NCBI RefSeq assembly: GCF_003428625.2
Contig: NZ_QVQT02000003.1
Location: 186,001-250,000 of the forward strand
Reading direction: 5' to 3'
DNA length: 64,000 bases
DNA from: Paracidobacterium acidisoli
GTDB lineage: Bacteria; Acidobacteriota; Terriglobia; Terriglobales; Acidobacteriaceae
Positions 1 to 11,473 of the stretch are shown here, in pieces. The position numbers were made by a program, and so were the translations under genes. The notes beneath the pieces were generated by a model. That model saw only the letters and a list, made by a program, of their open reading frames with translations. It was not told the DNA's origin and did not search any database. Position 1 is the stretch's first letter; the number at the start of each line of letters is the position of its first letter.

Positions 1-467
1 AAGCCTCCGCGGCCGAGTGTGGGAAAAATAGCCAGCACCGGACCATCTTCCTGGCTCAGAACCTGAAGATCAGAAAGAGCGATATTGATGGGACCGGTTT
101 GAGTAAAGCCCGAGGCCCCAAAGGCGTATGGATTCGTTCCGTAGCTAAGGGTGCGCGTCAGTCCGGCAGGGAATAACTGTGTCTTCGGAAGAATGGACAA
201 AGAAGCGCTGCCCAGAGAATTTGTGCCGTCATAGAAGAAGCTGACCTTGCCGGTGGGCATACCGCCGCCTTTGGGAGCGGAGACCACAGAGGTCAGTGTG
301 AGGCTGCCGGGAAGCGTGAGCGAAGGACTGCTCGAAGTGAGAGAGGTGGCACTTGCGGACGCCGCGGGCGGCGGGACAGTTTGGGCGCGCAGCAGAACAG
401 AAGAAGCCGCCGCCGCGATGACGAACCCAATGCTGCAACGAGTGGCGATATGGCGAAGGTGCTTCAT
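1..467 (-). CDS. Secreted protein with bacterial Ig-like repeat (3' end outside window)
   Basis: Reading leftward from ATG at 467, the frame stays open to base 1, so only the first ~155 residues are seen. They begin with a signal peptide (MKHLRHIATRC followed by a hydrophobic Ala-rich stretch and RAQT), then a Ser/Thr-rich part and a region around PTGKVSFFYDGTNSLGSASL typical of bacterial Ig-like domains of cell-surface proteins (seen as Big_3-type folds). The start overlaps the stop of the upstream lipoprotein gene by four bases (ATGA), which suggests translational coupling. The job is probably structural or adhesive at the cell surface; no catalytic motif is visible in the part present. Confidence 0.75.
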   Translation of the reverse strand, partial: MKHLRHIATRCSIGFVIAAAASSVLLRAQTVPPPAASASATSLTSSSPSLTLPGSLTLTSVVSAPKGGGMPTGKVSFFYDGTNSLGSASLSILPKTQLFPAGLTRTLSYGTNPYAFGASGFTQTGPINIALSDLQVLSQEDGPVLAIFPTLGRGG

Positions 468-1534
468 TGCGCCGCTCCCTGAGTAACGGAGCGAACTCCG
501 GGGATAAACAAAGTGCGTGGAGTGACAGCATCACCATTAAAGACCCAGGCAGGACCGGATGATGGATCGGAGAGCAAAAAGGTACTATTGCCGCTGAGCG
601 GGCGCAGGTTTGCCGCTGCACAGCGGCATGCAGTTTGCGTGATAGAGGTTTGACCCGTAAGGTCGATCCGCATCAGAGATGTGCCTCGGAGATTAGCGAT
701 GGTCAGCCATCGTCCATCGGCGGAGGCAGCAATAGCCGATGGCTGTGAGACCCCCTGTTCGGTGCCGGCGATAGGTTGCAGCGATACAGCAGATGTGAGA
801 TTCGACGCGAGCCAGACTGTACCTTTCGAGCCGTCCGCAATGACTGCGCTCTCATTCTGAGGTGCAGCAGCAGATGCGATGAACGTCATGCCCGCCAGAG
901 TGGCAACATTCGTCACAGTCGAGTAGCTCTTTGAGGAGAGTACATCGATGGCGATCTCGCCACCGGGCTGGCCAAAGGCTGCGAGAACCATTCCCGCATC
1001 ACTGACTGCAGCCGCGGTCAGGGAACCGGAAGACGGCAGCTCCATAGTCTGCACCTGGGGCGCCGCAGGCAAGCCGGTAATCAGGACCGCACCGGCACTG
1101 TCCTGCGCATAAAGAAGCGCTGCAGAGCAGGATGGGCTTAGAGCAATCTGCTCCTTTGCTCCTGACTGAGCAGTGATCGTTACAGGCGTGCCCGCGGGGA
1201 GTTGAGCGAGGAAAGTTTGACCTTTTGTGCCCGTGAAAAGCGCATAACTCTTCTGCATGCAGACGGAAGCATTGCTGTAACCCATTCCGGCATACTGCGG
1301 TGATCCGAACTCTGCAGCTCCGGGCACTCCGTAGATCGGTCGAAGTCCGGATGCCGTGCTGTCCCAGGCATAACCCAGCATGGGGCCGGCGGTGACGCCA
1401 ACAGAGGCAGAGCCGGAGGGAGAAACGGGAACCCCGGTGGGAGTTGTCCCACAGCCTCCTGCAAGGATCAATAGCATTGCAGCGATGCTGACCGCAGGAT
1501 TTCGCAGAATATCGGGAAAAGCTTCGTTGGACAT
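464..1534 (-). CDS. Putative outer lipoprotein, beta-propeller-like, unknown function
   Basis: 356 residues starting MSNEAFPDIL, with a hydrophobic segment and a lipobox (LAGGC, Cys28), so it is predicted to be a lipid-anchored exported protein. The rest is Gly/Ala/Ser-rich with several blade-like strings (for example SAIAASADGRWLTIANL) as in NHL/YVTN-type beta-propellers, but I cannot name a family with certainty. It is co-transcribed with the downstream Ig-like gene through a 4-base ATGA overlap. This pair resembles secreted cell-surface operons common in Acidobacteria (inference). It diverges from the kinase operon starting at 1791. Confidence 0.75.
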   Translation of the reverse strand: MSNEAFPDILRNPAVSIAAMLLILAGGCGTTPTGVPVSPSGSASVGVTAGPMLGYAWDSTASGLRPIYGVPGAAEFGSPQYAGMGYSNASVCMQKSYALFTGTKGQTFLAQLPAGTPVTITAQSGAKEQIALSPSCSAALLYAQDSAGAVLITGLPAAPQVQTMELPSSGSLTAAAVSDAGMVLAAFGQPGGEIAIDVLSSKSYSTVTNVATLAGMTFIASAAAPQNESAVIADGSKGTVWLASNLTSAVSLQPIAGTEQGVSQPSAIAASADGRWLTIANLRGTSLMRIDLTGQTSITQTACRCAAANLRPLSGNSTFLLSDPSSGPAWVFNGDAVTPRTLFIPGVRSVTQGAAQ

Positions 1535-1790: not shown

Positions 1791-3689
1791 ATGCGAATGG
1801 AAGAAATGCAGCTTGCACAGCTGGAAGCTCTGCTCGGAGAGAAGTATCAGATCATGCGCCGCATCGGAGGCGGAGGCATGGCTCAGGTGTTTCTTGCCCG
1901 TCATCGCCGTCACGGCGGCGCATTTGCAGTGAAAGTATTGTCCGAATATCTTGCGCAGGACCCGCAGATTGTGGCGCGCTTCGAGCAGGAAGCGAGGACG
2001 GCAGCAACGCTGTCCGGCCATCCGAATATCGTGCCGATCTTCGATATCGGTCAGGGGGATGGCCTGCACTACATCATCATGCAGTTCATTTCAGGAGAAG
2101 ATCTGGCGAGCTGGCTTCGCCGGAACGGCAAGCTGGCTCCGCCGGATGCGGCTAACGTGATTGCACAGACTGCCGAAGCGCTGATCTGGTCCGAGAGTCA
2201 TAAGGTAGTGCATCGCGACCTCAAGCCGGCAAACATGCTGCTGGATACCAATGGCCGGATCATGATTCTGGATTTTGGCATCTCGAAGGCAGCCGACGTA
2301 TCGGATGGGCTCACCCGGCCAGGAGAAAGCCTGGGCACTCCCTGCTATATGAGTCCCGAGCAGATTCGCGGCCTGCCGTGCGATGTGCGCAGCGATTTGT
2401 ATTCGCTTGGTGTGATCTTCTTCGAGCTGATGACAGGAAAGCGGCCGTTCGACCATGAATCGGTAACGGCCATTCAGATGGCGCATCTGACGGAGGCCCC
2501 GCCGGATCTGCTAAGCGTGGAGCCGGAGTTGCCCGAGATATGCGGGCAACTGGTGCAGAAGATGCTGCAGAAGCGGCCGGAAGATCGTTATCAAAGCCCG
2601 CAGCGGTTTCTGGAGGAGTTGCGAAATCTGGGCGCCACTTCGGGGCCCGGGCAATTACGGCCGCAGCTGAACATGGCAATCGAGGAAGACCTGCACCAGC
2701 CGATCACAGGTACACCGGCGAATATGCAAACGATAAGTGCCGCCAACATCGGGTCGAGGCAAAGTGCCGATTTCTCAGACGCACCTGTGAAGACGGCAAC
2801 TGCAGTGTCATCGCTTATTTCTGAAACGCCTATGGCGGCAACATCCACTATTGCCCAGAGGGAGCCACGTGCTGCAGCCAGGAAAAAGCCGAAGGGTCTT
2901 TGGGCGCTGACAATCGTTGTATTGTTGCTCGCCCCTCTGTCTGTTGCGTTCTTCCTTCCGGAGCATCCGGCTTCGGCTTTTCAGGATGCGCATGGCAGGA
3001 TGGTGCTGGTTCCGGCAGGCAGCTTTATTTATGGCGACAACTCTCCCGATGCGCCGCGCAGACAGCAGACGTTATCGCTGCCAGCGTATTACATCGATGA
3101 AACGGAGGTCTCGAATCGGGAATACCGGCACTTCATCGAGGCTACCGGACATGCACCGCCAAATGCCGACAGCTATGCAGACAAGCCGGACGATCCGGTA
3201 TCCGGCGTCAGCTATGACGATGCCTCAGCGTACGCTGCATGGGTGGGCAAGCGGCTTCCAACGGAAGAGGAGTGGGAGAAGGCAGCGCGCGGAACGGATG
3301 GACGCCCTTATCCCTGGGGCAGCGATGCATGGACAACCGGTGTGCCGACGACTGTCCAGCCGGTTGAGTCTTTCCCCGATCGCAAAAGCCCCTATGGAGC
3401 GTTCAACATGGCCGGGAATGTCTTCGAATGGACGGCTACAGTCTTTCCGGCAGGTGACCGTGAATTTACGGACATGCGGTCGCTGCTGGGCAGTCCGGAC
3501 TTCTCAAGACGCTGGTATGCGATTAAAGGCGGTAGTTTTTCTCCACACGGTGATGTATTCTTCCGGTGTTTTATGCGGAGGGGTTTCCCTTCAGACCAGC
3601 ATTCGCCGATCATTGGATTCCGCTGCGTGCGTGCTGTGCCGCAACAAGGCCTTCTTTCCCGTCTGCATCTGCTTATTTTTGGAAGGTAG
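1791..3689 (+). CDS. Transmembrane Ser/Thr protein kinase with FGE-sulfatase-like domain
   Basis: 632 residues. Residues ~19-280 form a Hanks-type kinase: Gly loop GGGGMAQV, Lys48 (FAVKVL), catalytic loop HRDLKPAN with Asp143, DFG at 161-163 and SPE at 188-190. All key residues are present, so it should be active. A linker is followed by one membrane helix (~369-390) and then an FGE-sulfatase/SUMF-like domain (~404-622: MVLVPAGSF, RLPTEEEWEKAARG, AGNVFEWT, GFRCV). Topology: kinase in the cytosol, FGE-like domain in the periplasm. First gene of a four-gene operon ending at 7451, five bases before the next start. Start chosen at 1791; ATGs at 1797 and 1806 are alternatives. The FGE part lacks the closely spaced Cys pair of true formylglycine oxidases, so it may be a ligand-binding domain (inference). 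Confidence 0.93.
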   Translation: MRMEEMQLAQLEALLGEKYQIMRRIGGGGMAQVFLARHRRHGGAFAVKVLSEYLAQDPQIVARFEQEARTAATLSGHPNIVPIFDIGQGDGLHYIIMQFISGEDLASWLRRNGKLAPPDAANVIAQTAEALIWSESHKVVHRDLKPANMLLDTNGRIMILDFGISKAADVSDGLTRPGESLGTPCYMSPEQIRGLPCDVRSDLYSLGVIFFELMTGKRPFDHESVTAIQMAHLTEAPPDLLSVEPELPEICGQLVQKMLQKRPEDRYQSPQRFLEELRNLGATSGPGQLRPQLNMAIEEDLHQPITGTPANMQTISAANIGSRQSADFSDAPVKTATAVSSLISETPMAATSTIAQREPRAAARKKPKGLWALTIVVLLLAPLSVAFFLPEHPASAFQDAHGRMVLVPAGSFIYGDNSPDAPRRQQTLSLPAYYIDETEVSNREYRHFIEATGHAPPNADSYADKPDDPVSGVSYDDASAYAAWVGKRLPTEEEWEKAARGTDGRPYPWGSDAWTTGVPTTVQPVESFPDRKSPYGAFNMAGNVFEWTATVFPAGDREFTDMRSLLGSPDFSRRWYAIKGGSFSPHGDVFFRCFMRRGFPSDQHSPIIGFRCVRAVPQQGLLSRLHLLIFGR

Positions 3690-3694
3690 TTCCT

Positions 3695-4621
3695 ATGCAT
3701 AAGCTGCCGGTGATCGTTATGCTGCTGGCCGCTGCAACGGTGGTGGCGCAACAGCAGAATGCTGTGTCCGGGATGAGCGCGCGCGATGTTTTCTGGTCTG
3801 CGAGCGATCTGGTGAGTGTTGCACCCAATCCCGGAACCACAGGTGCCGCTGCGGCGAAGCCTCCCGAAAAGAAAACCGCAGCGATACGAAGACCTGTGAA
3901 GCAGACAGCGGCAGTGAAACATCAGCTGGACCCGAAACTGGTGACGGCGAATGGCTATGGTGTGCAGCCGCATCTCGTAAGCATGACAAGCGATCGTATC
4001 GGTCTTCGCTATACGCTGCTGCAAAAGAATGCTGATGCAAAGTACGTCGAGGTGATGCCGTCGACGGTCTTTCACAGTGGTGATCGGGTAAAGATCAGCA
4101 TCATGGCAAATCATGCCGGGTATCTCTATATCATCCAGCAGGGATCGAGCGGGAACTGGTCGCCAATCTTTCCCAGTCAGGACGCGGCTCGTGAATCCAA
4201 TTACGTAGAGGCCGGGAAGGTGTATGAAATTCCGGGCGACGGCGCCTTCGAACTGAATCAGCAGGCAGGCAAAGAGCACCTTTTCATCGTGCTGAGCCTT
4301 GATCCGATCCAGGATCTGGATGGAGCGATTTTCGGTCTCCGGAATAACGGTCAGGAAGCACCTGCGAGCAGCACTCCGGCTCCGGCTCAGATGCCCGGCA
4401 CAGAAAGGCTGGAGGCGTCGAACCGCATAACCGATGCGCTGGTACAGCAGCTTGCCAGTCGCGATCTGGTTCCGGTGCAGGAACAGGTGAATACCCCGGC
4501 GACCAGCAATGGCGGCAGCAGCGGAGAGTCTGGCGAAAAGGCGATTTATGTGGTGAATTCGCTCTCTGCCGAGTCGCACGGCTCCCGTGTGGTCGCATCG
4601 CTTGTTCTGGATCATGAATAA
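3695..4621 (+). CDS. Exported DUF4384 domain protein (first of two)
   Basis: 308 residues from ATG 3695, preceded by GGAAGG at a good distance; a longer in-frame start inside the kinase gene is unlikely. It has a signal peptide (MHKLPVIVMLLAAATVVAQ) and a DUF4384 domain at ~100-215 (VFHSGDRVKISI, GYLYIIQQGSSG, PIFPSQ). DUF4384 domains are known next to or fused with bacterial kinases and caspase-like proteases, with no established biochemical function. The C-terminal 90 residues are Ser/Pro/Gln-rich. Predicted periplasmic. Second gene of the kinase-caspase operon; the next gene encodes a shorter paralogue. Confidence 0.88.
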   Translation: MHKLPVIVMLLAAATVVAQQQNAVSGMSARDVFWSASDLVSVAPNPGTTGAAAAKPPEKKTAAIRRPVKQTAAVKHQLDPKLVTANGYGVQPHLVSMTSDRIGLRYTLLQKNADAKYVEVMPSTVFHSGDRVKISIMANHAGYLYIIQQGSSGNWSPIFPSQDAARESNYVEAGKVYEIPGDGAFELNQQAGKEHLFIVLSLDPIQDLDGAIFGLRNNGQEAPASSTPAPAQMPGTERLEASNRITDALVQQLASRDLVPVQEQVNTPATSNGGSSGESGEKAIYVVNSLSAESHGSRVVASLVLDHE

Positions 4622-4647
4622 AGATGCTTCGCTGAGGTCACGCACGT

Positions 4648-5349
4648 ATGCGAAAACGCTTTGCCTCTTCCTCCGCTTCAGGGCTTCTGCTGATCGTTCT
4701 TATATGTTCCCCAGGTAGTCTGTTCGCGCAGACGCCTCATATGGGGATCGTTGTGGAGCAGCAGGCTGGAAATAAGGTCGAAGTGAAAAATCCGCAGCAT
4801 ATTTTTCATGCGGGTGATCTGGTTCGATTCCGTTTCCGTTCGTCCTTCGATGGATATCTCTATGTGATGGACCAGAGCACGTCGGGAAAGTATCTGCTGC
4901 TGTTTCCTGTGCAGGAAGTACAGAACGCAAACCGTGTCGAGCAGAATAAGGAATATCTGATTCCGGCAACGAATGGATCGTGGTTTCGCGTGGATGATCC
5001 TCCTGGATATGAGACGGTTTATTTTCTGATCAGTCCGGTGCCTATGGAAAAGGCTGCCGTGTCGCCACCGCATCCGCTGCCGGCTGAGCCTCCGCCGCCC
5101 AGCGCCCCCGCTGCACTCCTGCCGCGATGTGATGATTCAGTATTTCGAGCGCGCGGTGAGTGCGTTGATGTGCTGGCCGGGCCGCGCTCGGTGAGTCCCG
5201 ACGAAACGCTGCCTTCACAGTTGCCAATCACTCCAGGAGCAACGCCTCGCGACATCACAGTCATCAACAAGCCGGCTGCCACGGTGGTTGCTCCGAAGGA
5301 TGGTGCTATGGGGCCGCTGATCTATCAGTTTCGACTGGCACACAGGTAA
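4648..5349 (+). CDS. Exported DUF4384 domain protein (second of two)
   Basis: 233 residues with a signal peptide ending near SPGSLFAQT. The DUF4384 core (~30-130) aligns by eye with its upstream neighbour: IFHAGDLVRFRF, GYLYVMDQSTSGKY, LLLFPVQE and YLIP correspond to the same blocks in the 3695-4621 product. The C-terminal half is Pro-rich and low-complexity, with two Cys (PRCDDSVF, GECVDV) that could form a disulfide in the periplasm. The gene lies 26 bases after the first DUF4384 gene and two bases before the caspase gene, so all are in one transcript. The two paralogues probably arose by tandem duplication and may act as a pair (inference). Confidence 0.88.
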   Translation: MRKRFASSSASGLLLIVLICSPGSLFAQTPHMGIVVEQQAGNKVEVKNPQHIFHAGDLVRFRFRSSFDGYLYVMDQSTSGKYLLLFPVQEVQNANRVEQNKEYLIPATNGSWFRVDDPPGYETVYFLISPVPMEKAAVSPPHPLPAEPPPPSAPAALLPRCDDSVFRARGECVDVLAGPRSVSPDETLPSQLPITPGATPRDITVINKPAATVVAPKDGAMGPLIYQFRLAHR

Positions 5350-5351
5350 AT

Positions 5352-7451
5352 ATGAAGCGCTGCATGCTGATACTGGTGATGGTTGCACTCGCGGGCTATT
5401 TTGCCGCAGCGCAAAATGCTGCGGTTGCATCGGGAGATGCGCCGCAACAGGAACAGAGCCGCGATCTTACGCATGTAAAAGAAACGACGGCTAACCCTTC
5501 TCCCGCACCAGCAATTCCTCACAGCTATGCGCTGGTCGTTGGCGTATCGCACTACGCGCACCTCCCGGCGAAGGCTCAGTTACAGTTTCCTGACCGTGAC
5601 GCGGAGGATATGTACACGACGCTGATCAGCGCAGAGGGAGGGAATTTTCCCCCCGAAAATGTGCATAAGCTGATCAATGAACAGGCGACGCTTCAGAATT
5701 TGCGCCACGAGCTGACCGAATGGCTCCCGTCGGTGACGGGACCAGACGATCGCGTGCTGATCTATTTTGCCGGGCATGGATTTATCGCGGGAGGTAAGGG
5801 GTATCTCGCGACGACGGATGTTGATCCGATGCATCTGGCCGATACAGCATACCCGATGGAAGACCTGGGAAGAGATATCGGTACAAAGATTCATGGCAAG
5901 TGGAAGGTGCTGATTACGGATGCGTGCCATAGCGGCTCCATTACTCCGGAGGATGACACCGCTCAGGTGAATCACAATCTGCTGAACCTGGATGTCTCGA
6001 CGTTTTCTCTCACTGCCAGCCGGGATCGCGAGCAGAGTTTCGAGAGCCCGCAGTGGGGTGGCGGACACGGCATATTTACTTACTACGTGATTCGCGGACT
6101 GGAAGGCGAAGCCGACGCATCCGGTGACGGCATTGTGACAGCCGATGAGCTGGCTGAGTATGTGCGCAGTAATGTGCGTCTGGCGACGAAGACGCTGCAG
6201 AATCCAACCTCGGACCGCGGCAGCTTTGACCCGAATATGGTGCTGGCCTACAACCCGGGACGCTCGGTTAAATGCACGGCCAACTGTCCCGGCGCGCCAC
6301 GCTACGGCACTCTTGTTGTGCAGACCAACATGGATGGCGTGGAGGTCTGGCTCGACGGAAAAAGCGTTGGTGTAATCGATAAAAACAAGCCATTACGTCT
6401 GCCTGGCATGGCTCCGGGGCCGCATACCGTGAAGGGTGTGCATCTGGGGTATGAGCCGGATGGGCCGCGCGAGGAACAGGTATATCCAGGACAGGACACC
6501 TCGGTCAGCATTCGCATACTGATTGCCAGGCAGAAGAATCACGCTGCGGAAGAACCCTTCGACAAAGGTGTGGAACTCTACACTCGAGGTTTTGCAGTGA
6601 ATTATAAGCAGGCCGCCGTCGATTTCGAGCAGGCGCTGCAGCTCGACCCGCAGTACAGTCAGGCGGCGCTCTATCTGGGCAGGACCTGGCAGGCTCTTTA
6701 TGATCCGGAGAAAGCAGAGACCTACCTGAAGCAAGCCATCGCGATTGATCCGGATTATCTGGAAGCCCGGTTAAGTTATGCGGCGGCGCTGCTCGATACA
6801 GGCGATTATGATGAGGCGATTCGTCAGACGAATGCGGTTATTCAGCGCGATGCATCGAACGGGATGGCCTGGTATCTGCAATCGCAGGCATTTGTACGCA
6901 AAGGAAGTTATGACCAGGCGGTTGCTTCGGGAAAGCAGGCGGTGAAGATCACTCCATCGAATGGGGAGGCGCATCTGTGGCTGGCCGAAGCATTACGGCT
7001 GTCAAACCAGTGCACGGAAGCGAACCCCGAATACAGCCGGTACCTGGCGCTAAGTCAATTTAACAGTGCTCTCGGGGGCCAGCTGAATTATTACCTTCTC
7101 GGCAGCTTCTTCGGATTCGGCGTGAAGAAGCGAGCGGCGGAACAGGATATCTGGCGCGAGCTGCGGGCGCAGGCGAATGTCGGCATCTGTGACTGTCTCT
7201 GGATGCAGAAACAATTTTCCGCCGCTGCTGAGTCCTGCCAGAAGGCTCTGAGCTATGTGCACGACGATCCGTATGCAAATTACCGGCTGGGGCTCGTTTA
7301 CGCCGAAGAATATAACGGCAACGGAAATCCAGAGCTGCTGCGCGAGGCGCGCCTGCATTTCAGTACGGTGATTGCGCTTATTCCGGATACGGATGAAGCC
7401 CAGCGGTCACGAAAATATGTGGCGAACATCGATGCAGTCCTGCTGCACTGA
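5352..7451 (+). CDS. Exported caspase-like (C14) protease with EF-hand loop, PEGA and TPRs
   Basis: 699 residues. A signal peptide (~1-20) is followed by a caspase p20-like domain (~57-300) with the catalytic dyad His142 (YFAGHGF) and Cys192 (TDACHSG). At 255-266, inside this domain, lies a 12-residue loop DASGDGIVTADE with the EF-hand pattern (Asp1, Ser3, Asp5, Gly6, Glu12). A PEGA domain (~318-390) and TPR repeats (~395-690) follow. Family knowledge: bacterial metacaspase-like proteases cut after basic residues and some need calcium. The signal peptide places it outside the cytoplasm, with the DUF4384 proteins and the kinase's FGE domain. Last gene of the operon. Alternative view: a scaffold or signalling protein using its TPR and PEGA parts. 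Confidence 0.92.
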   Translation: MKRCMLILVMVALAGYFAAAQNAAVASGDAPQQEQSRDLTHVKETTANPSPAPAIPHSYALVVGVSHYAHLPAKAQLQFPDRDAEDMYTTLISAEGGNFPPENVHKLINEQATLQNLRHELTEWLPSVTGPDDRVLIYFAGHGFIAGGKGYLATTDVDPMHLADTAYPMEDLGRDIGTKIHGKWKVLITDACHSGSITPEDDTAQVNHNLLNLDVSTFSLTASRDREQSFESPQWGGGHGIFTYYVIRGLEGEADASGDGIVTADELAEYVRSNVRLATKTLQNPTSDRGSFDPNMVLAYNPGRSVKCTANCPGAPRYGTLVVQTNMDGVEVWLDGKSVGVIDKNKPLRLPGMAPGPHTVKGVHLGYEPDGPREEQVYPGQDTSVSIRILIARQKNHAAEEPFDKGVELYTRGFAVNYKQAAVDFEQALQLDPQYSQAALYLGRTWQALYDPEKAETYLKQAIAIDPDYLEARLSYAAALLDTGDYDEAIRQTNAVIQRDASNGMAWYLQSQAFVRKGSYDQAVASGKQAVKITPSNGEAHLWLAEALRLSNQCTEANPEYSRYLALSQFNSALGGQLNYYLLGSFFGFGVKKRAAEQDIWRELRAQANVGICDCLWMQKQFSAAAESCQKALSYVHDDPYANYRLGLVYAEEYNGNGNPELLREARLHFSTVIALIPDTDEAQRSRKYVANIDAVLLH

Positions 7452-7520: not shown

Positions 7521-7596
7521 TGGAGCACCGGGCGGGAATTGAACCCGCGAATACTGGTTTTGCAGACCAGCGCGTTAGCCACTTCGCCACCGGTGC
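7521..7596 (-). tRNA. tRNA-Cys (GCA), first copy
   Basis: Complete cloverleaf on the minus strand: acceptor GCACCGG pairs with CCGGTGC, D stem GCG/CGC, anticodon arm CTGGT-CTGCAAA-ACCAG giving anticodon GCA, T arm GCGGG-TTCAATT-CCCGC, discriminator U (typical for tRNA-Cys) and encoded CCA. Its body differs strongly from the second tRNA-Cys at 11399-11473. Confidence 0.93.
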
Positions 7597-8611: not shown

Positions 8612-9505
8612 ATGAGAGAAATTGAATACCGTCTTTGCGATGTGTTCACGGAGACGCGGCTCGCAGGTAATCAGCTTGCGGTGTTTCTCGACGGTGGCGC
8701 GTTGACCGGTACGCAGATGCAGGCCCTGGCAAAAGAAACGAATCTTTCGGAAACAACATTTATTTGCCGGCGGGAAGCTGCAGTGGAAGCCGAACGCGGT
8801 GTGCGGGTGCGCATCTTCACCACACAGGAAGAGTTGCCGTTCGCAGGACATCCCACGCTGGGTACAGCGGCAACGATACGCGAGACATGCGCCGAATATG
8901 CGCACGCGGAGACCGTGCGGCTTGATTTGAATGCAGGCATAGTACCAGTGAGGTTTTCGCCGGAACGCAGTACGGGGGCATCTGTCTTCGGTGAAATGAC
9001 ACAGCCGGAGCCGGTCTTCGGTGCGTACCATCAGAGCGCGCAACTGGCGGCTATCCTGGGCCTTGCGGTGGAGGATCTGCACCCAGAGTGGAAGCCGCAG
9101 ACCGTCTCTACCGGTATGCCGTTCTGCATTGTGCCGCTGCGTTCCGTCGAGGCACTGGGAAGGCTGTCTCTCCATGCGCGAGAAGCGGACGACTATCTCC
9201 GCAGCACCGACGCAAAGTTTATCTATGCAATAGCGCCCGGGGAAGAAGGCACATGGAGGGCGCGAATGCAGTTTTACAACGGTGAGGACCCGGCGACGGG
9301 GTCGGCAGCAGGCTGCGCCACAGCATGGCTTGTCGCGCATGACCTGGCTGCCTCGGACAACGTTGTGCATCTCCGGCAGGGCATTGAAATGGGCCGGCCG
9401 AGCGGTATTTACGGCCGTGCAAAATTGAGCGATGGCCGGGTGAGCGAAGTGCGTATTGCGGGCAGCACTGTTTCTGTAGCAAAAGGACGGTTTTTCCTTG
9501 AGTGA
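8612..9505 (+). CDS. PhzF family isomerase-like protein
   Basis: 297 residues, usual length for the PhzF/diaminopimelate-epimerase-like fold. Diagnostic segments: DVFTETRLAGNQLAVF at the N-terminus, NLSETTFI with the conserved catalytic Glu47, TQEELPFAGHPTLGTA, and GEDPATGSAAGCATAW in the second half. Members are isomerases of largely unknown substrate; the phenazine role of PhzF itself does not follow from this match, and no other phenazine genes are present. Cytosolic, single gene. A 7-bp inverted repeat lies just upstream. Confidence 0.93.
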   Translation: MREIEYRLCDVFTETRLAGNQLAVFLDGGALTGTQMQALAKETNLSETTFICRREAAVEAERGVRVRIFTTQEELPFAGHPTLGTAATIRETCAEYAHAETVRLDLNAGIVPVRFSPERSTGASVFGEMTQPEPVFGAYHQSAQLAAILGLAVEDLHPEWKPQTVSTGMPFCIVPLRSVEALGRLSLHAREADDYLRSTDAKFIYAIAPGEEGTWRARMQFYNGEDPATGSAAGCATAWLVAHDLAASDNVVHLRQGIEMGRPSGIYGRAKLSDGRVSEVRIAGSTVSVAKGRFFLE

Positions 9506-10019
9506 TTCACATGCTTTCAACAGAGGCAGAATGCAGAAGTAGCAGCAATGACAATACGAATGTGATTGAGGGCGTGAATCTACGCCAAAAGTAATCTGTT
9601 TCTTCGCTTATTGTTCTCCATTTACACGGTGCGTCAGTCTCCGTACTCTTGGCAAGCGTTCCCCCAAAAAGGAACCAGCTTTCGCCGATTGATAAACAAC
9701 TTAATTTGAGCAGAGGCGCATTTCATGCGCGTTCCTGCCGTTTCGGTTATGCGCGGAATGAAGCACTCCGTGAAAGTGCCGAAGCGGAATAAGGCCCGCG
9801 GGCAATCATGAAATGAGCTTCTGCTCTCCGCATCCTGGTCCGAACCGGAGGGCGGCTCCGCGTCTTTTTGCGCGCTGGGAACAGCGCTGCCACGCGGCAG
9901 CGACTGTGCGCTTTCTTTCGGACCAGGTGCGGCCAACGGAAACCCCCTGCGGGTGCATGCGCGATATGTGTGCCTGTATGAAGCAGCCTTGCCGTGCTCG
10001 CGAGGCGGTCAGGAAGACC
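9506..10019. other. Long intergenic region, no supported gene
   Basis: 514 bases between phzF and the receiver protein. The receiver frame stays open leftward to 9813 but that part is Cys/Arg-rich and matches no domain, so I treat it as leader. The first 300 bases look lower in GC than their neighbours. Only a small hairpin (GGCGT-GAATCT-ACGCC near 9572) is visible; no tRNA, repeat or terminator is clear. Confidence 0.5.
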
Positions 10020-10457
10020 ATGAGGCCTAAAAAAACGATTCTGTGCGTCGATCACAATGAGCAGGCTCTTGCCGTGCGTAAATTTATGCTGGAAACCCGT
10101 GGCTATCGGGTGATTACCGCTCTTTCGAGCGAAGAAGCTCTGGAGGTGTTCCGCAATGGCGGAATCGATCTGGTGCTGAGCGATCTGCTGATGCCGCAAA
10201 TGGACGGCAATGAGTTGGTCCGGCGGATGAAGGACATGACGCCCGAGGTGCCGACGATTCTGATGAGCGGTACGGTGAAAGCATTTGAGCGCGCCAACCG
10301 CGCCGATGCGTTTCTGCCTAAAGGTGCATGCACTCCTGTGGAGATGCTGGAGCGGATTCGCATTATGATCGCCCGCAAGCGCGGACCCAGGAAGACACTT
10401 CGGCCGGCGTTTCACGAGATGAGCCGGGCAATGCAGGAAACGGTGGGCGCAGCCTGA
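10020..10457 (+). CDS. Single-domain response regulator (receiver protein)
   Basis: 145 residues from ATG 10020 (MRPKKTILCVDH), which follows AGGAAG closely. It is a CheY-like receiver: acidic residue Asp11 (second acidic position is His12), phospho-acceptor Asp55 in LVLSDLLMPQMDG, Ser83 (LMSGT) and Lys101 (FLPKG). About 25 basic residues follow and no DNA-binding output domain, so it acts through protein contact or as a phosphate sink. No histidine kinase lies nearby. An in-frame extension up to 9813 exists but has no domain support. Confidence 0.85.
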   Translation: MRPKKTILCVDHNEQALAVRKFMLETRGYRVITALSSEEALEVFRNGGIDLVLSDLLMPQMDGNELVRRMKDMTPEVPTILMSGTVKAFERANRADAFLPKGACTPVEMLERIRIMIARKRGPRKTLRPAFHEMSRAMQETVGAA

Positions 10458-11398: not shown

Positions 11399-11473
11399 GG
11401 CGCGGTACCCAAGCGGTAAGGGAGAGGTCTGCAAAACCTTTATGCGTCGGTTCGATTCCGACCCGCGCCTCCA
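11399..11473 (+). tRNA. tRNA-Cys (GCA), second copy
   Basis: Acceptor GGCGCGG/CCGCGCC, anticodon arm GAGGT-CTGCAAA-ACCTT with anticodon GCA, T arm GTCGG-TTCGATT-CCGAC, discriminator U and CCA. This is the canonical bacterial tRNA-Cys body (GGCGCG... acceptor). Confidence 0.95.

Follow-up and report, generated by a model that had tools for sequence, protein, structure and literature searches.

Within a 64,000-nucleotide stretch of the Paracidobacterium acidisoli genome (contig NZ_QVQT02000003.1, positions 186,001 to 250,000; hereafter the window), four genes on the forward strand at 1791-7451 encode a Ser/Thr kinase with an FGE-like domain (KIN), two DUF4384 proteins (D1 and D2) and a caspase-like protease (CAS), next to a divergent gene for a predicted lipoprotein (LP). 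Comparison of this locus with its relatives revealed that the conserved core is the block D1-D2-CAS, predicted to be exported, together with LP, and not the kinase, which is an optional accessory that, as the trees show, has been recruited repeatedly beside the module. What is new here is a putative strand motif, R-[DE]-L, common to D1, D2 and the N-terminal tail of the protease. The reading that we favour, tentatively and with slightly less than even confidence, is that an envelope protease-adaptor complex forms around the exported caspase-like protease and that its state is read by a receptor kinase. An earlier sequence-only reading had described an operon linking a transmembrane kinase to an exported protease. 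The four genes are as it described them, with intergenic gaps of 5, 26 and 2 bp on re-measurement, and the kinase-protease co-occurrence recurs in other Acidobacteria; however, the kinase is not the centre of the arrangement, its FGE-like domain does not appear to be an FGE enzyme, and the gene list was incomplete, the divergent LP also being part of the conserved neighbourhood.

Cell death is the usual context in which bacterial caspase relatives are discussed and, to our knowledge, their partners are largely unknown. Conserved gene order now names such partners, a candidate docking motif can be assigned to individual residues, and a receptor-kinase link is supported by repeated recruitment and by gene fusions; a signalling role for a bacterial caspase would thereby become directly testable with point mutants, and functional context is added for DUF4384. 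The module is real, non-random and more general than the sequence-only reading could see, and its kinases look like interchangeable readers.

The loci examined were those of the best 80 of 198 Acidobacteriota relatives of CAS. The order D1-D2-CAS is found at 58 of them (49 that lack an upstream kinase, 8 that have one, and L106, in which the order is masked by an over-long CAS frame). Other layouts are D2-CAS (11 loci), a kinase-D1-like fusion before CAS (2), D1-CAS (2) and CAS alone (5, with the CAS frame beginning within 213 bp of the stretch end); the two others are L114, cut by a contig end, and L127. In a sample of the class, DUF4384 occurs in 40 of 200 genomes, and 28 of the 40 stretches contain a close CAS, 21 of these as D1-D2-CAS. 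A genome of another class (L158) carries D1 and D2, with CAS apparently some 12 kb away (L127). Some sets overlap in genomes and were never summed (L033-L072 with L073-L152, L085 with L193, L078 with L195). The window genome (5.0 Mb, 97.4% complete) holds two DUF4384 matches, namely D1 and D2, and one C14 match. The sequence-only reading had made its claim depend on co-occurrence in other Acidobacteria, and the synteny search found the predicted exported genes there as a conserved block.

Concerning LP, the 120 genomes of the window's family contain LP in five and CAS in five, and these are the identical five (Fisher p 5e-9). The LP family profile matches WD40/beta-propeller chains. LP lies divergently beside the module in L192, L194 and L195, the first of which, a relative on a single contig, repeats the window's order of divergent LP followed by KIN-D1-D2-CAS. 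In Granulicella aggregans (L079) the genes present are LP, D2 and CAS, and no kinase is linked to them.

Every kinase count given here was obtained with a profile derived from KIN relatives. Across the 80 loci there are 18 separate kinase open reading frames, none of them farther than 661 bp from a module gene and 15 no more than 30 bp away; the profile search found no kinase elsewhere in those CAS-locus stretches. Where a locus is flanked by 2 kb or more on each side, a kinase is present in 17 of 57 cases. The kinase stands upstream in eight loci (and in L093, cut by a contig end) and convergent behind CAS in five; in two, KIN-D1 converges with D2-CAS, L107 is divergent, the kinase of L148 is convergent with CAS, and L139 and L141 have it fused with a D1-like domain. 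In the CAS tree, one group of 22 rows contains every upstream layout, and the convergent layout needs four changes. On the kinase tree the upstream kinases form one clade with those of L077 and L085 (100/99), and the convergent kinases are intermixed with unlinked kinase-FGE proteins; the separation of upstream from convergent kinases into different clades indicates recruitment on more than one occasion. Among 46 genomes, the closest KIN relatives (E <1e-100) are found nowhere but next to the module: 8 of the 28 genomes that have CAS contain one, and 0 of the 18 that lack it. Of the 22 rows in the window's CAS clade, 13 have D1 together with KIN, 8 have neither and one is unreadable (L097 was set aside, its contig ending 280 bp upstream; L093 shows the FGE part only; and in L078 and L080 contig ends close by make the absence less certain). 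Genome-wide, G499, G536 and G191 have one DUF4384 match and no kinase in the stretch, and in G545 and G564 there are two matches, along with a kinase. As a separate observation, L107 has a second, FGE-less kinase (8946-10310, + strand), which follows CAS at a distance of 11 bp in the same orientation.

Receptor-type kinases with an FGE-like or DUF4384 outer part, as predicted from their domains, lie beside core or DUF4384 genes far above chance across the phylum. The D2 profile matched in 27 of 297 genomes, including the window's, and the 68 DUF4384 places outside the window, all of which were covered, amount to 54 stretches. A Ser/Thr kinase is present in 43 of the 54 (16/20 in a first set and 27/34 in the remainder) and in 1 of 16 control stretches, which were drawn from 15 of these genomes and from the same contigs (p 1e-7); counted by genome, the kinase lies beside DUF4384 in 22 of 26. 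The first 20 stretches were hand-picked, six of them partly for an open frame of ~600 residues hinting at a fusion, and without those six the kinase is found in 10 of 14 (p 4e-4). Two of the remaining 34 (G202), counted as misses, are short broken fragments without DUF4384 by profile. Kinase and DUF4384 share one frame in 29 of the 54 stretches by profile (19/34 in the later set); of six such fusions examined with Pfam, four have both domains over the cut-off (L162, L164, L170 and L171), L166 reaches 26.1 against the DUF4384 cut-off of 27, and L139 shows no DUF4384. The available text of PMC6426788 states that DUF4384 is often found with N-terminal kinase domains; in the portions of the DUF4384 literature available, no account of this gene cluster was found. 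The caspase profile matched in 13 of the 54 stretches, three of them weakly (L167, L214 and L225), and in 0 of the 16 controls. It was also observed that, in other classes, caspase-like genes (>50 bits by profile) lie near kinase and DUF4384 genes in L198, L199, L204, L211, L213 and L222, and that within the class Terriglobia caspase-FGE proteins adjoin DUF4384 genes in L035 and L036, the former also having a weak caspase-DUF4384 protein, so that these three domains are met there in different fusions.

Alternatively, the kinase may be an independent regulator that has no more than transcription or position in common with the exported proteins, and no physical or signalling link to them. Its dispensability near most loci would suit this explanation, as would the seven loci (L077, L085, L089, L092, L099, L106 and L121) in which it lies on the opposite strand and would not be co-transcribed because it faces the module from there. 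However, convergent kinase neighbours recur despite the lack of a common transcript, kinase-DUF4384 fusions occur in many stretches and the presence of D1 co-varies with that of KIN within the window's clade, so that we consider a mere positional association unlikely.

The domain architecture of KIN is consistent with a receptor. Pfam assigns it a Pkinase domain (171.5 bits) and an FGE-sulfatase domain (160.6 bits), and hydropathy analysis revealed hydrophobic N-termini on D1, D2 and CAS and one membrane segment in KIN, a pattern that agrees with a kinase in the cytosol, an FGE-like domain outside and export of the other three. FGE catalysis was rejected: in an alignment to human FGE (1y1e), P and F stand at the two Cys positions that we take to be the catalytic pair. 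Because both are replaced, the domain is probably non-catalytic and more likely serves as a sensor or ligand-binding domain. As a side observation, R-E-L occurs between the membrane helix and the FGE-like domain in the kinases of L088, L090, L100 and of L055, L057, L059, L060 and L061; these are overlapping genomes of one lineage, the motif is not in the window's KIN, and it was not counted as support.

Both DUF4384 proteins score well above the Pfam cut-off of 27 for PF14326 (D1 55.4 bits, D2 56.8 bits), and a sequence search for solved relatives of either returned chance-level matches only. D2 was modelled as a beta-sandwich with a predicted local distance difference test (pLDDT) score of 86, for which VIA ranked the Ig-like AGS-C domain of a Pycsar cyclase best (Z 7.5); the model suggests a common beta-sandwich only, to which Ig-like matches are generic. 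Two invariant Cys residues of D2, at 161 and 172 (5128-5130 and 5161-5163), lie between the DUF4384 half and the C-terminal strands and possibly form a disulphide, which would fit export. The penultimate residue of both proteins is an invariant His (D1 307, 4613-4615, 49/49 rows; D2 232, 5341-5343, 58/58 rows), and this L-x-H ending recurs in many DUF4384 proteins and kinase fusions throughout the phylum.

The pattern common to the CAS tail and the C-termini of D1 and D2 is R-[DE]-L-x-hydrophobic. CAS residue 39 is Leu in 53 rows and Ile in 3, and elsewhere the tail, from the signal-cleavage region to the protease domain, is variable and modelled at a pLDDT of ~40. With a score matrix derived from D1, the CAS tail site outscores every other 8-mer of the protein in 17 of 18 representatives, and none of 2000 shuffles attains the mean motif score with either the D1 or the D2 matrix. 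Such motifs could in principle be cleavage sites, CAS cutting itself as well as D1 and D2 after Arg and thereby releasing or activating them, as its relatives are said, in the available sections of PMC6426788 and PMC8283722, to cut after positively charged residues or Arg/Lys. The invariance of the Arg in 56 CAS and 49 D1 rows and the unstructured model of the CAS tail would agree with this, yet we prefer a docking strand, since the conserved residues follow the Arg (D-L-x-x-E-K) rather than preceding it, on the side where the protease would be expected to read; moreover, the D2 motif forms part of a folded strand in the model and its Arg is absent in 7 of 58 rows. A role in cleavage thus seems improbable to us.

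CAS scored 57.7 bits against Peptidase_C14 (cut-off 21.4) and has the His-Cys dyad, which places it by sequence in the C14 family; Pfam also identified TPRs, and PEGA at 20.6 bits, just below the cut-off of 20.8. Asp83 and Asp190, which we take to be specificity residues, are likewise invariant in 56 rows. The best solved relative by sequence is metacaspase-4 (E 4e-4), with which the catalytic and Asp residues align, suggesting that the acidic specificity pocket is kept. When the CAS model was compared by Foldseek, MALT1 was the sole caspase among the 50 solved chains listed, the rest being mainly TPR proteins, with a template modelling (TM) score of 0.78 by the length of 3v4o. For the predicted Ca2+-binding loop, the only EF-hand match was a weak one, to polcalcin (E 0.26).

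Based on these findings, we propose that outside the membrane the DUF4384 proteins would bind CAS and one another through the shared R-[DE]-L strand motif, that CAS would act as a single-chain, Ca2+-dependent protease cutting after Arg/Lys, and that LP would anchor or present the complex. The kinase would read D1 or the D1-D2-CAS complex through its outer domain, which probably binds a ligand rather than acting as an enzyme, and the cytosolic kinase activity would change in response, from which a signal running mainly from outside to inside is drawn. At loci without a linked kinase, the same protease complex may work alone or report to another receptor. A bolder and fairly unlikely version is a periplasmic caspase signalosome, in which beta-strand exchange via R-[DE]-L brings an exported, paracaspase-like protease together with Ig-like DUF4384 adaptors on a propeller lipoprotein, and the assembly is read by interchangeable transmembrane Ser/Thr kinases; if true, this would be an extracytoplasmic counterpart of animal caspase-adaptor-kinase signalosomes, widespread in Acidobacteriota.

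Several points weigh against the protease-adaptor complex as proposed. The kinase was found at only 19 of the 80 loci and by profile at none of the other 61, some of which are truncated contigs; a close KIN relative is present in only 8 of the 28 CAS genomes, and outside the window's clade D1 mostly lacks a linked kinase. LP lies near CAS in 36 of 67 loci with sufficient upstream sequence (37/80 overall, by profile search) and was not found in 16 kb of L073, a close relative (CAS 81% identity); its family is broader than CAS in the class (61/200 genomes, with copies elsewhere), and the lipobox Cys is present in only 7 of 32 aligned rows. As to the motif, several single rows are non-significant with the D2 matrix (p up to 0.11), and the statistics count related tails as separate rows; because the rows are related, the sharing may reflect one ancestral event, retained while the rest of the tail changed. 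Foldseek returned no match with E <= 0.001 for the D2 fold, only generic ones, and the EF-hand of CAS was assigned by eye from sequence. Lastly, we infer export, binding, protease activity and signal direction alike.

The domains involved have been met in other combinations. Prokaryotic caspase homologues (orthocaspases or bacterial metacaspases) share the C14 domain and the His-Cys dyad with CAS, have TPR and FGE-sulfatase among their commonest partner domains (PMC3501461, available portion) and may carry DUF4384 (PMC8283722 and PMC7475262, likewise in part); here, in contrast, an ordered operon encodes the partners as separate proteins whose starts look export-like, the N-terminal tail motif is common to CAS and its partners, and some lineages add a linked receptor kinase. 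Kinase-DUF4384 fusions occur beside CAS in L139, L141, L162 and L163, whereas in the window the kinase and DUF4384 are separate and the kinase bears an FGE-like outer domain. KIN resembles the PknB/Stk1 PASTA receptor kinases in its cytosolic Ser/Thr kinase, one membrane helix and outer domain, but Pfam found no PASTA repeats in it, the FGE-like domain standing in their place, and the NCBIfam model NF033483 (Stk1/PknB PASTA kinase) reached 309 bits against a cut-off of 450. MALT1, which acts with BCL10 and CARD11 in a signalosome, is an Arg-specific protease according to the accessible part of PMC3500650 and is, as proposed for CAS, tied to a signalling assembly; CAS, however, looks exported and carries TPR and PEGA, and the kinship shown is one of fold only. 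By the paracaspase definition in the available text of PMC6426788 (an Ig domain before p20, no p10), none were found in prokaryotes; CAS has MALT1 as the sole caspase among its 50 listed chains, but PEGA follows the protease domain and Pfam matched no Ig domain. The VMAP, iSTAND and diversity-generating retroelement (DGR) conflict systems with FGE and caspase domains use the same domain vocabulary (PMC7159879 and PMC10907252, available parts), whereas the four genes lack an NTPase or MoxR-vWA domain by Pfam, have export-like starts and belong to a genome in which no reverse transcriptase was found.

The same papers, as far as available, place caspase, TPR, FGE and kinase domains in bacterial conflict systems, and the module might on that account be a programmed-death or anti-phage effector, infection or damage activating the kinase or protease and the exported protease destroying the envelope. 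PADLOC did return many PD-T4-6 kinase matches, but these look generic, reaching no further than the kinase domain or, at most, the linker, and hydropathy suggests an exported protease. A defence island was rejected, the ten neighbouring genes giving only ABC-transporter-type and weak matches and none credible for defence, as was a DGR-diversified FGE sensor, the window genome having no PF00078 reverse transcriptase match. The conflict-type model NF047832 (caspase, EACC1-associated type) reached 99.1 bits on CAS, under its cut-off of 140. The link to conflict systems made in the sequence-only reading was consequently not carried over, and we hold a death effector to be quite unlikely. A role in nutrition or envelope maintenance (secreted proteolysis or protein quality control) without signalling has little probability in our view, since kinases are recruited beside the module or DUF4384 genes far above control, although the signal-peptide-like start of the protease, its TPR and PEGA, the adjoining propeller lipoprotein and the many genomes without a linked kinase would be in keeping with it.

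Table 1. Positions of the module genes and of their predicted domains, motifs and residues in the window.
Feature	Positions	Strand	Residues	Evidence and remarks
KIN, Ser/Thr kinase - membrane helix - FGE-like domain	1791-3689	+		Pfam; kinase residues conserved in 10 rows
KIN Pkinase domain	1845-2600	+	19-270	K48, D143, N148, D161 invariant in 10 rows
KIN single membrane segment, between kinase and FGE-like domains	2898-2957	+	370-389	Hydropathy
KIN FGE-like domain	2997-3632	+	403-614	Both catalytic Cys of human FGE (presumed pair) replaced
D1, DUF4384 protein, predicted exported	3695-4621	+		Pfam; R-[DE]-L type motifs near mature N-terminus and in C-terminal part
D1 N-tail motif R-[DE]-x-F, near N-terminus	3782-3793	+		R30 49/49, F33 49/49
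D1 C-terminal RDL motif	4460-4468	+		R256, D257 49/49; L258 48/49
D2, DUF4384 protein, predicted exported	4648-5349	+		Pfam, model; beta-sandwich model; two invariant Cys
D2 C-terminal R-[DE]-[LI] motif	5248-5256	+		R in 51/58 rows; folded strand in model
CAS, caspase-like protease, predicted exported, C14 - PEGA - TPR	5352-7451	+		Pfam
CAS N-tail RDL motif	5460-5468	+		R37, D38 in 56/56 rows
CAS catalytic His (predicted)	5775-5777	+	142	Invariant in 56 rows
CAS catalytic Cys (predicted)	5925-5927	+	192	Invariant in 56 rows
CAS EF-hand-like loop, predicted Ca2+ site	6114-6149	+	255-266	By eye; D259, E266 invariant in 56 rows
LP, predicted secreted lipoprotein, beta-propeller-like	464-1534	-		LAGGC lipobox; divergent, conserved fifth component

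The start of D1 was placed at the ATG at 3695, which gives a signal-peptide-like start; the mechanical open reading frame list has 3566. A scan of the window for promoters and terminators returned fewer sites than in shuffles and was uninformative. Two tRNA-Cys (GCA) genes lie within 4 kb, at 7521-7596 (- strand), directly downstream of CAS, and at 11399-11473 (+ strand), and a tRNA-Gly is also present.

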